From contig RECZ01000069.1 in NCBI GenBank assembly GCA_007693765.1, positions 1 to 47,588 of the forward strand: a stretch of DNA of 47,588 bases, written 5' to 3'. The DNA is from Phycisphaerales bacterium. GTDB taxonomy: Bacteria; Planctomycetota; Phycisphaerae; Phycisphaerales; UBA1924. Below are positions 18,107 through 22,024 of this stretch, one piece after another; positions within the stretch are counted from its first letter, which is position 1; every line of letters starts with the position of its first letter. The translations under genes and the position numbers were made by a program. The notes below the pieces were generated by a model that was given only the letters and a program-made list of their open reading frames with translations, was not told where the DNA came from and did not search any database.

Positions 18107-19120
18107 TTGACGCACGAACACACACCCGACCGCGACCCCGCCGCCGCTCGCGCCTCCGCCGCGCCCTGTCCCTACTGCGGGCACGTCCAGACGCCCCGCG
18201 AGGCCTGCATCGCGTGCCGCGGCCTCTTCGAGCCGCTCTCCCGTCAGGCCACACAGAACTCTATGGGGCCATGGCGCGTGCGCGACGAGAGCCAGCCCTT
18301 CCTGCCCGGGTGCTCTTACGATGTCATCCGTGCGCTGGCGGCCAAGGGACGCATCACGAGCGAGACGGTCATCCGCGGCCCCACCACGCGCCAGTTCTGG
18401 GCCTTCGCCCGCGACATCCCCGGCGTTGCGCACCTCTTGGGCGAGTGCCACCAATGCCACGCCCCCGCCAAGGCCACCGATAGGGCGTGCGCGATCTGCC
18501 GTGCGGCGTTCGCGGCGCCCACCAACAGGCAGTCGCTCGGCCTCGCGGGCGTGGACCCCGTGCCCACGGATGCGCCGCCGCGCCCCGCAGCCGCACATGG
18601 CGGAGCATCCGCCCGCGCCACGCGACCAGCGCACCCGGGCGCCGCCCCCGCGCAGTCGCAGGCCCTGCCCTTCGCGCGAGATTTCGTCGTGCCCGCGCGT
18701 CGACCGGGCGTCGCCCTCAACGCCGCGATCTTGGTGTCGATCGTTCTGCTTTGCGGGGTGCTCATCGCATGGGGTGTCATCAACCTCCGGGGCGACAACA
18801 ACGCGGGCGGGCAGGCCGGCGGTGAGGCCGCGTCGACGCTGCGCGCCGATGCGCCTTCGCAGGCCGACGACGAACAACCCGCGGCCGCCGCGGAGGGCGA
18901 CCCGTCGCCGGCGGGCGCCGAGGCCGCGGCCGCCCGGCGGATCGCACAGGTGCTCGAAGACCTCGACGAATCCGACCTCGACGACGTCCGCGAGGCCGTG
19001 GAGACGCTCAGCGAGTTCCGAGCCACGCTGCCCCCCGACGCCGCCGTCCCGGGCTTGGACGCCGAGATCGAACGTCTGGAGCGACGCATCGACGAGCTGA
19101 CGCTCCGGAAGTTTTTGTGA
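18107..19120 (+). CDS. Membrane-anchored zinc-ribbon / GYF_2-like protein
   Basis: A 337-residue protein with an N-terminal zinc ribbon (Cys21/24 in CPYC and Cys34/37 in CIAC). A GYF_2-like region (about 53-111: GPWRVRDESQPFLPG ... ALAAKGRITSETVIRGPTTRQFWAF) follows, then a second Cys quartet (114/117 CHQC and 128/131 CAIC). After that come a Pro/Ala-rich linker, one membrane segment (203-226) and an acidic helical C-terminal tail with a coiled-coil-like end. Topology would put the ribbons in the cytoplasm. GYF_2 modules bind peptides, so a scaffold or adaptor role is likely; no enzyme motif is seen. The start is TTG 18107, supported by AGGA six bases upstream. Divergent from the parvulin gene. 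The 3' end shows no nearby terminator; the first strong one is at 19557. Confidence 0.75.
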   Translation: MTHEHTPDRDPAAARASAAPCPYCGHVQTPREACIACRGLFEPLSRQATQNSMGPWRVRDESQPFLPGCSYDVIRALAAKGRITSETVIRGPTTRQFWAFARDIPGVAHLLGECHQCHAPAKATDRACAICRAAFAAPTNRQSLGLAGVDPVPTDAPPRPAAAHGGASARATRPAHPGAAPAQSQALPFARDFVVPARRPGVALNAAILVSIVLLCGVLIAWGVINLRGDNNAGGQAGGEAASTLRADAPSQADDEQPAAAAEGDPSPAGAEAAAARRIAQVLEDLDESDLDDVREAVETLSEFRATLPPDAAVPGLDAEIERLERRIDELTLRKFL

Positions 19121-19392
19121 GCGGGGGAGGTCGGCCCCCCACCCCGAGCCCCCTCCGCCACGCGGCCTGATCCACGCGCAGTGCGCGCCGGCGGTCCCCG
19201 GCCGGCGTCCGAACAAAATAAGAACAAGATTTTTCGCGCCCGCCGCGGGCGTCGAACTATCCGTACGAGGCGATGCGGGATCCTCCCCGGCCCGATCAGG
19301 GGGGGCGTGGTCAGCCCCGCGGCGACCCTCGTCTGATGATCGCATTCTGTACGGGTAAAATTTCCACCCCTGTTTTCCTCGGGATTCCGGCG
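19121..19392. other. Gene-free stretch after the zinc-ribbon gene
   Basis: No coding sequence recognised. It contains a perfect 7-bp hairpin CGCCGGC / GCCGGCG (19186-19192 and 19201-19207), not followed by a T run, so it is not a convincing terminator, and a second short stem CGCCCG / CGGGCG just downstream. An AT-rich patch with TAAAAT (19355-19360) and a poor -35 (CTGATG, 17-base spacer) might be a weak plus-strand promoter. Confidence 0.4.
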
Positions 19393-19433
19393 GTAAGCGT
19401 TTCGTAAGCGCTTTATTTGCAGTATCTTATAGA
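19393..19433 (+). promoter_or_regulatory. Candidate activator-dependent promoter of the structured RNA
   Basis: Two identical heptamers GTAAGCG (19393-19399 and 19404-19410) are repeated with an 11-base period, the layout of OmpR/PhoB-family response-regulator boxes. Seventeen bases after the second repeat lies TATAGA (19428-19433) within TCTTATAGAT, a fair -10 with no -35, as expected for an activated promoter. Predicted start is near 19440. Confidence 0.4.
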
Positions 19434-19439
19434 TTTCGT

Positions 19440-19600
19440 TCCATCCCGCTCTATGTGCGTTGACGTCGCTGGCGGAGGGCATACCCTTCTCCGACCTCGC
19501 CGATACTCTTGGCGAGTCACAACCTCGCGCCACATCGCGGCCTCGCGCCGCGATTTCCGCCGGATGGAGATCGGAGCCTTCATCCGGCGGTTCTTTTTTT
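19440..19600 (+). ncRNA. Candidate structured small RNA with four hairpins
   Basis: About 160 bases, from a predicted start after TATAGA to a strong terminator. Four consecutive stem-loops can be drawn. SL1 is GGAGGG / CCCTTC (474-479 with 484-489 of 19,xxx; one GU pair; loop CATA). SL2 is CTCGCC / GGCGAG (19496-19501 and 19511-19516). SL3 is ATCGCGGC / GCCGCGAT (19534-19541 and 19547-19554), a perfect 8-bp stem. SL4 is a 10-bp terminator stem. The density of perfect stems and the independent promoter-like sequence argue for a real transcript. It is not tmRNA (no acceptor stem or CCA), nor SRP RNA, nor an evident 6S RNA. Short open frames across it show no recognisable product. A 3' UTR fragment of the zinc-ribbon gene is the alternative. 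Confidence 0.5.
19557..19600 (+). terminator. Strong intrinsic terminator, plus strand
   Basis: A perfect 10-bp stem CCGCCGGATG / CATCCGGCGG (19557-19566 and 19581-19590, 14-base loop) is followed immediately by TTCTTTTTTT (19591-19600). It lies 437 bases past the last plus-strand gene and does not work in the other orientation. Confidence 0.88.
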
Positions 19601-19660
19601 GTCCGTTTGCGCGCCGTGCGCCCTGTCGATTGCTGTCTGACAGGAAGCGCGAGCACGCGT

Positions 19661-22024
19661 TCACGGCGCTGCATCGTTGGTCGTGCGCTCGTCGTCGGGA
19701 GGCGCGTGCAAAGGGCGCGCCATTCTGATGATCGCCTCAACGATCAGCCACGACTCGAGCGCCAGCGTCGCGCTCGCGACGCCCACCAGCGTCCAGTTGC
19801 GTTGTGTGAGCCACGACGGGTTCTCAGCGTTCCCGATGAACCCCTGCCACGCCATCGCGCTCGCCGGCACGAGCAGCATGAACAGCGTCGGCCCCACCGT
19901 GAACCAACGCGCCCGCCCCGTCGCGCGCAGCCACGCGTAGAGCACGATGAACGCCAGCCCCGCCAGCAACTGGTTCGTGGCGCCGAAGAGCGGCCACAGG
20001 ATCAGTCCACCCTGGCCCGCGTTCGCCAACGACCACGCCTGCCCCTGCGCCGGCATGGCCGCGAGCATCGCCGCGCTCACGATCGCGAACAACGCCGCGC
20101 CCCACGCCGTCGAGAGCCACTTGAACGGGTTGAACACCGACGCGGCCCGTCGCTGCGCCGCCAGCGACGCTGCGCCTTCCACGGGCGGCGCGCCCGAGCC
20201 GCACTCGGGGCAGGTCATGCCCACGTGCAGCCCGCTCAGGTCGTACCCACACGCGATGCACGCCTGCTGCGGGGGCCGCGGCAGGAAGGTGCGCGACAGC
20301 TCCTGGATCACGTACCGCTGCAGGCGGCACGCGGTGTCCATCGTCGTGCCCGCGAACGAGGCCACCATCACGCCCATCAGCGCCACGCCCAGCGAGACGG
20401 GGATCCCGATCGCCGCCAGCAGGTTCGCCGCCCCGTCCACGAAAGCGCTGACCATCGAACGCAGGCCCCCGGCGGCGCTCCACGACCGGTAGCGGGCGTC
20501 GAAGGCGAGTTGGCCGCTGAGGAACGACTCGGCGCCCCGCTCGCCCCGCAGCAGCAGCGCGCCCTCGGGCAGCGCGATGCGCATCGGGCCGTCGCGCAGG
20601 GACGCCTCATCGAACGCGAGGAACGCGCCCGGCGCGTCCGTGTCGTCCGCCGTCGTGCGCTCGATCGAGGCCGATCGCGTCCGCAGCGCGCCGGGGTCGC
20701 GCATGGCGTCGTCGTCGGTGATGGGCTCGCTCGTGGCGTGGAGGCGCACCCGGTAGGAGCGCCCGTCGCGCAGCGGGATGACGCTCTCGAGTTCCTCCGT
20801 CAGGCGCGTCTGTCCGTCCGCCGCGACGCTCAAGGAACTGGTGCGCGTTTCGAGCGTGTGCCGCACGCCCAGCCCCAGCCCCGCGGCGCAGGCGAGGATC
20901 ACCAGCACCGCCAGCCACGCCTCGGTGAGCATCGACCCGAAGCCGATGGCTCTGGCGTCCGTCTCGCGTTCGATCTGCTTGGAAGTCGTGCCCGAGCCGA
21001 CGAGGCAGTGAAAACCCGACACGGCGCCGCAGGCGATGGTGATGAACAGGATCGGGATGAGCGGGGGGGCGCCCTCGGGCTGCCAGTTAACGACCGGCGC
21101 CACGATCTCCAGCGGCATGCGCGTCGGCGCATCGGCGATCGCGCCGGCGGCGTCGACGGCCGCGCCCGCGCCGTCCATCGCCACGCCCCCGAGCGTCGCC
21201 GCGCCGACCAGCCCCGCGAAGAGCAGGCCCAGCGTCGTGATGAGTTGCAGGGCGTTGATGTAGTCGCGGGGTTGCAGCAGCACCCACACCGGCAGCACGC
21301 TGGCGATGTAGGCGTAGAGCAGCAGCGCGACCGTCCACGCCCACAGCGGCTGGGCCGCGAGCAGGGCGTTGAAGTCGTGCAGGGGCGTGAGCGTAGGCCC
21401 GAAGTGGGCGTCGCCGAAGACCACGCTCAGGTACATCAGGACGAGGGCCACGACCGAGACCGGCCCGATCGACCCGCCCCGCCGGTGGATGAACAGCCCG
21501 ATGCCGATCGCAAGCGGTATCTGGAAGAGCACCGGGAAGATCGCCGCGGGGTACGCGCGCAGCACGCTCGCGATCACCAGCCCGAAGACCGCCAGCACGA
21601 TCCACAGCCCCATCACCAGCACGAACAGGAAGATCAGGCGCACGCGCGGCCCGAGCAGGTCGCCCGCGATGTCCCCGATCGTGCGCCCCTTGTTCCGCAG
21701 CGACACCACGATGGACCCGAGGTCGTGCACCGCCCCGATGAAGATCGCCCCCAGCAGCACCCACGCGATCGCGGGCGCCCAGCCCCACATCACCGCGATC
21801 GCCGGCCCGACGATCGGCCCCGTGCCCGCGATGGAGGTGAAGTGGTGCCCGAAGACGACGGAGCGCGCCGTGGGGCAGTAGTCCTTCCCGTCGCGCAGAG
21901 AAAAGGCCGGGGTTGGGGCGTCTTCTCGGAGCGTGAAGACGCGGTTGGCCAACCACCGGCCGTAGGTCGCGTATGCCAGGATGAGCGCGCCGCCGCAGAA
22001 GAGCGCGAGCAGCAAGGCTTCCAT
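19661..22024 (-). CDS. cstA: Carbon starvation protein A family transporter with internal zinc ribbon
   Basis: A 787-residue inner-membrane transporter (peptide/pyruvate uptake in characterised relatives) with many transmembrane helices. Family signatures: DYCPTARSVVFGHHFTSIAGTGPIVGPAIAVMWGW near the N-terminus, FIGAVHDLGSIVVSLRNKG, SGFHCLVGSGTTSKQIERETDARAIGFGSML, and LWPLFGATNQLLAGLAF near the C-terminus. It is longer than most CstA because of two insertions. One is a hydrophilic stretch of about 115 residues (about 390-505), probably extracytoplasmic. The other is a CX2C-X12-CX2C zinc ribbon (Cys589, 592, 605, 608; CIACGYDLSG...CPECGSG) in a loop between helices. The GYDLSG ribbon is a recurrent planctomycete module. 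ATG 22024 follows a weak GGAA. It is convergent with the structured RNA and divergent from the cyclase gene. Confidence 0.92.
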   Translation of the reverse strand: MEALLLALFCGGALILAYATYGRWLANRVFTLREDAPTPAFSLRDGKDYCPTARSVVFGHHFTSIAGTGPIVGPAIAVMWGWAPAIAWVLLGAIFIGAVHDLGSIVVSLRNKGRTIGDIAGDLLGPRVRLIFLFVLVMGLWIVLAVFGLVIASVLRAYPAAIFPVLFQIPLAIGIGLFIHRRGGSIGPVSVVALVLMYLSVVFGDAHFGPTLTPLHDFNALLAAQPLWAWTVALLLYAYIASVLPVWVLLQPRDYINALQLITTLGLLFAGLVGAATLGGVAMDGAGAAVDAAGAIADAPTRMPLEIVAPVVNWQPEGAPPLIPILFITIACGAVSGFHCLVGSGTTSKQIERETDARAIGFGSMLTEAWLAVLVILACAAGLGLGVRHTLETRTSSLSVAADGQTRLTEELESVIPLRDGRSYRVRLHATSEPITDDDAMRDPGALRTRSASIERTTADDTDAPGAFLAFDEASLRDGPMRIALPEGALLLRGERGAESFLSGQLAFDARYRSWSAAGGLRSMVSAFVDGAANLLAAIGIPVSLGVALMGVMVASFAGTTMDTACRLQRYVIQELSRTFLPRPPQQACIACGYDLSGLHVGMTCPECGSGAPPVEGAASLAAQRRAASVFNPFKWLSTAWGAALFAIVSAAMLAAMPAQGQAWSLANAGQGGLILWPLFGATNQLLAGLAFIVLYAWLRATGRARWFTVGPTLFMLLVPASAMAWQGFIGNAENPSWLTQRNWTLVGVASATLALESWLIVEAIIRMARPLHAPPDDERTTNDAAP

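Follow-up and report, generated by a model that had tools for sequence, protein, structure and literature searches.

The stretch of DNA that we analysed (the window; 47,588 nucleotides of one contig from a Phycisphaerales genome of 2.9 Mb) contains a predicted small RNA gene on the plus strand, situated between a plus-strand gene and a convergent gene of the CstA family. The upstream gene (18107–19120) encodes a zinc-ribbon, probably membrane, protein that has no match in Pfam or NCBIfam; it is syntenic in several relatives and genera, and it ends at 19120, more than 370 bases 5′ of the predicted RNA. The CstA-family transporter gene (PF02554, E = 2.5e-121) occupies 19661–22024 on the minus strand with its 3′ end at 19661, and the same gene adjoins the RNA in part of the relatives. 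No tRNA gene was found in the window. We predict an RNA of about 105 bases (66–132 in relatives), extending from 19494 to 19600 with a start uncertain by ±2 bases.

The segment 19494–19600 folds at −51.1 kcal/mol (z = −4.92), as none of 200 shuffled sequences did, and R1, a covariance model that counts the window sequence among its own 13 members, matches 19514–19605 at E = 1.2e-17. The 5′ hairpin (19496–19516) is variable among relatives and missing in the shortest of them. It is followed by a second hairpin (AUCGCGGC/GCCGCGAU; 19534–19554), which forms the first covarying helix, by a terminator hairpin of 13 pairs that also covaries among relatives (19557–19590) and by a T tract (19591–19600). 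The terminator hairpin exposes the loop AUCGGAGC at 19570–19577, with UCGGAGC as its core. A preliminary description of this DNA had proposed a structured small RNA ending at a terminator of its own, and the three hairpins and the T tract are indeed present. It had counted four stem-loops, of which the first (GGAGGGCATACCCTTCTCC) drops out: the 74 bases before the RNA (19420–19493), which include it, show chance-level folding (z = −0.30), and it overlaps the real −10 region. The window copy is somewhat divergent. In relatives the second hairpin mostly ends in ...GCCGUGGCR, an ending that is lost in the window genome, and GCCGUGGC is missing from the second hairpin of the window copy. Among 94 RNAs, 19 contain CAGAC, where shuffling predicts about 6; it typically lies immediately 5′ of the second hairpin and is a possible further contact site. 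GCGC lies within 10 bases after the T tract of the RNA (about 19600–19615 in the window) at 31 of 95 loci; of 303 other T tracts at these loci, 11 have it.

A BLAST search of 163 genomes of the same family returned one convincing partial match (genome G050), which shares the second hairpin, the terminator and the loop; similarity in the family was otherwise weak, the short matches there being mostly unrelated coding sequence, and plain DNA similarity to plasmids was not detected. Because G050 shared these elements, we searched with a pattern made of the terminator loop GATCGGAGCC and a following T tract, which located one terminator hairpin built in the same way in each of 13 genomes, that of the window among them. 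When aligned, the 13 loci have the order palindrome, about 25 bp, TTGAC, 16 bp, TANGCT, variable 5′ part, hairpin ending in ...GCCGUGGCACGCCG and terminator with the loop AUCGGAGC. The model R1, built from the last two hairpins of these 13 members, identified 19 bona fide copies in the 163 family genomes and 129 copies in 400 genomes of the order (E of 1e-3 or better); a second model, R2, identified 86 copies in 248 genomes of the class. Nearly every match is a single copy per genome. In about two thirds of the order and class genomes no copy was detected; incomplete assemblies or divergence may explain some of these absences. In a sample of 246 genomes from the phylum, matches were confined to the same order, plus one weak match at 6e-4. 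The phylum sample is a good negative control: the family is essentially confined to the class Phycisphaerae, with essentially none outside. A stem-loop pattern, searched over 84,980 species genomes, gave 17 matches, 14 of them in Phycisphaerales, Phycisphaerae or relatives; the remaining three (Duganella, Actinomycetota and Rokubacteria) have no T tract and were judged to be chance. Weak covariance matches in the family (for example, L070–L076) lack the loop, are ordinary GC-rich terminators and were left out of the counts.

The comparison among relatives shows a conserved, structured RNA family whose stems are held by compensatory changes, the check that the preliminary description had named for its stems. 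Across 72 aligned members from the order, 94.7% of cells are paired and 19 of the 21 pairs have changed on both sides, with a covariation score of 0.540 (0.196 ± 0.010 for column shuffles; at most 0.116 with the partner slid). A further 24 members, most of which belong to other families of the class, give a similar picture (93.3% paired, 12 of 21 pairs changed on both sides, score of 0.440 versus 0.175). The loop core UCGGAGC is found in all 72 order members, even where the closing pairs differ, while the stem varies freely. GGAGC is kept in 12 of the 24 further members and CCGUGGC, which is present in 41 of the 72 order members, in 23 of these 24 mostly more distant sequences; the two motifs therefore differ in depth. 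Outside the order the loop is altered in several families (f8, f15, f19, f21 and f22). The models were built from loop-bearing sequences, so that the invariance of the loop within the order is partly ascertained; R2 also retrieves class members with quite different loops, however, and the invariance at the level of the order is therefore more than an artefact alone.

Directly upstream we predict a sigma-70-type promoter, recognized by its conservation in 95 relatives, with the −35 element TTGACG at 19460–19465 and the −10 element TACCCT at 19482–19487 (spacer of 16). TTGAC is kept at this position in most of 96 relatives, and the −10 element takes the form TANNNT in relatives, with spacers of 16–18; the best candidate promoter before the RNA carries TTGAC and TA...T at nearly all of the 96 loci. 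A generic consensus promoter scan found no promoter here, and the −10 element of the window copy is weak. The predicted start, at about 19494, is 7 bases past the −10 element. The upstream-controlled promoter of the preliminary description survives as a conserved promoter with a control site upstream, but it had been misplaced, the true promoter lying about 50 bp further down. The relatives move the start away from its earlier position near 19440, and TATAGA, once taken as the −10 element, is an arm of a palindrome that relatives conserve.

This palindrome (TAAGCGCTTTATTTGCAGTATCTTA) spans 25 bp at 19405–19429, has the class consensus TAAST-N15-ASTTA and is centred about 77 bp before the predicted start. 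The motif TAAST...ASTTA emerged from an unsupervised search (Gibbs sampling) of the 120 bp before the −35 element at 96 loci, and its distance to the −35 element clusters at 24–27 and 33–36 bp, one helical turn apart. A matrix derived from the family only, which is palindromic about its centre (correlation of 0.82), placed the motif 23–28 or 33–37 bp before the −35 element at 63 of 77 loci from other families, where 9.3 were expected; the related sequences are not independent, and the corresponding P value is indicative only. In the window, the arms are TATAGA (19428–19433) and the second of two GTAAGCG copies (19393–19399 and 19404–19410). All of these had been reported previously and are present, but the first GTAAGCG copy, on the plus strand 11 bp upstream of the second, occurs only in the window genome, is unaligned in relatives and is not kept there. 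Only the inverted repeat is conserved, which removes the proposed OmpR/PhoB layout of direct repeats with an 11-base period. The palindrome motif offers a handle for finding the regulator. Palindromes that fit TAASTNNNTNNNNNNNANNNASTTAYR are also numerous in two class members, with about 15 copies in G448 and about 13 copies in G489; the reversed control gave none. Several of those in G448 (L248, L249, L250, L252 and L254) lie at the 3′ ends of tRNAs beside tyrosine-recombinase genes, and some palindromes of this type sit in terminator hairpins.

A divergent gene for a MutT-like Nudix protein precedes the RNA at 51 of the 96 loci. Close copies of this gene (E below 1e-24) are present in 15 family genomes, in 14 of which the RNA lies alongside, the 15th copy being at a contig end; five RNA-bearing family genomes, including that of the window, have no MutT gene beside the RNA. 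Within the family, this gene and the RNA are almost strictly inherited together. In several genomes the MutT start codon abuts the palindrome, and one palindrome may serve both genes. The palindrome is still kept at 38 loci without a MutT neighbour and therefore belongs to the RNA gene, whatever its other roles.

We consider it probable that the locus encodes a stand-alone, activator-controlled, Hfq-independent small RNA that acts in trans and uses its terminator loop as a base-pairing contact. A dimeric DNA-binding regulator, seated on the 25-bp palindrome about 77 or 86 bp before the start, would switch the RNA on; transcription would proceed from the RNA's own sigma-70-type promoter and end at its own intrinsic terminator. 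The RNA would act in trans, most likely without Hfq, and would offer its 8-base terminator loop to target RNAs for base pairing; in most relatives, the second hairpin may help to make contact through its GCCGUGGCR strand. We infer that the RNA is made in the cell, that its regulator is an activator and not a repressor, and that the loop works by base pairing. Hfq is absent from 24 of 24 genomes in which the positive controls were detected, and CsrA is present in 31 of 31, whether or not they bear the RNA. The start of the MutT gene, the only nearby target candidate examined, has no excess of the loop complement. A bolder version seems to us unlikely: a class-wide, Hfq-independent master RNA with a dedicated regulator, a parallel to the Gac/Csr system that evolved independently, in which the invariant GGAG loop would control CsrA or the translation of many mRNAs.

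The main rival to base pairing, although a doubtful one, is that the RNA is a decoy for CsrA: the GGA of the loop would bind CsrA and a GacA/UvrY-like regulator would act through half-sites resembling TGTAAG and CTTACA, making an independent circuit of the Csr/Rsm type. It takes this rank because such half-sites occur together with the loop GGA, which every order member and some additional families carry. Every genome inspected has CsrA. The half-sites resemble TGTAAGN6CTTACA, the UvrY/GacA box from which csrB and csrC are driven (PMC4682653), although they are about 11 bp, or one helical turn, farther apart. However, 71 of 94 RNAs have a single unpaired GGA, whereas csrB and csrC have many sites, and the 5′ parts of the RNAs have no excess of GGA (45 versus 41.7 expected). 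The conserved loop, at 7 bases, is longer than CsrA requires, and it does not have the A that the CsrA consensus places two bases before GGA. In f8 and other families there is no GGA, and CsrA is equally common in genomes without the RNA; moreover, FliW has been proposed as the control on CsrA in Planctomycetes (PMC4682653). Given these points against a decoy, we prefer loop base pairing, as in the LhrC RNAs.

The genes that follow the RNA vary by lineage and include a convergent CstA gene, PagL, a sugar kinase, an ACP phosphodiesterase and pyrK–pyrD (names from Pfam, except for the sugar kinase and PyrK, which were identified by inspecting the sequence). Some families have a gene in the same direction, for PagL, ACP phosphodiesterase or PyrK, that starts 60–300 bases downstream, as would be expected if the RNA were a cis-acting leader or attenuator, or a long 3′ untranslated region belonging to the upstream gene, and worked through its terminator. 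We regard this as very unlikely. The next gene is convergent in the window and at other CstA-type loci, and the RNA remains constant while the downstream genes change; these differences between lineages argue against a leader. In addition, a conserved promoter lies directly 5′ of the RNA, and more than 370 bases separate the RNA from the end of the upstream gene. In families elsewhere in the class, pyrK–pyrD follows the RNA by about 100–300 bases, in the same direction (L194–L211).

It is also highly improbable that the palindrome and hairpins form a site at the DNA level, for protein binding or recombination beside MutT, with the RNA incidental. Similar palindromes are enriched in two low-GC members of the class, in one of them beside integrase genes at tRNA ends; against this, compensatory stem changes with a constant T tract and loop point to selection at the level of RNA, and the order of promoter, RNA and terminator is preserved. 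That the transcript is a short mRNA for a small protein is hardly credible, as closed open reading frames inside the RNA are few (a short one in 13 of 94 members), none is common to the family and the RNAs, down to 66 bases long, are mostly hairpin.

A scan of the whole window and of 13 relatives against Rfam 15 at the gathering threshold gave no match except a tRNA in the flank of one relative, in agreement with the preliminary description, which had recognized no known RNA class. A permissive scan of 19100–19720 returned chance-level matches only, among them RsmY on the minus strand (E = 0.66). In the literature on planctomycete small RNAs we did not find this RNA family described, nor any small RNA established for Phycisphaerae. 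Surveys based on Rfam list only 8 families of small RNAs across the PVC group (PMC9029176). Rhodopirellula-1 is among published candidate RNAs and is listed there without an Rfam accession (PMC2864571). Like our RNA, these candidates and the PVC RNAs in Rfam are bioinformatic RNAs that touch Planctomycetes. The comparison covered the RNAs that have an Rfam family, and none of these matches ours at the gathering threshold. The RNA represents a family not described before within an established kind, the small regulatory RNAs, of which very few are known from this group. Together, the strong covariation, the fixed loop, the control site and the absence of Hfq offer an immediate and testable route into post-transcriptional regulation in this deep, little-studied class.

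Several known systems share parts of this arrangement. NrtR-type Nudix regulators likewise have a Nudix gene, which here is divergent from the RNA, but the neighbour at our loci resembles MutT and has no Pfam DNA-binding domain. CsrB/CsrC and RsmY/RsmZ, the Rfam models of which gave no match above threshold, resemble our RNA in the GGA of an apical loop, in a palindromic upstream site with TGTAAG/CTTACA-like halves and in the presence of CsrA in the genome; they differ in having many GGA motifs rather than one, in the spacing of the half-sites (6 bases, versus about 17 here) and in the distance from control site to start (about 180 bp in csrB, versus about 77–86 bp here). The LhrC family of Listeria, to which we found no sequence relation, is similar in design: the response regulator LisR switches on these small RNAs, and the terminator loop is among their contacts (PMC5880928). 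Our RNA would be similar in standing alone and, as we propose, in being activated by a regulator and making contact through its terminator loop. The LhrC loops, by contrast, are CU-rich, bind ribosome-binding sites and come in five copies per genome, whereas the RNA described here carries a GGAG-bearing loop and is present in one copy per genome.
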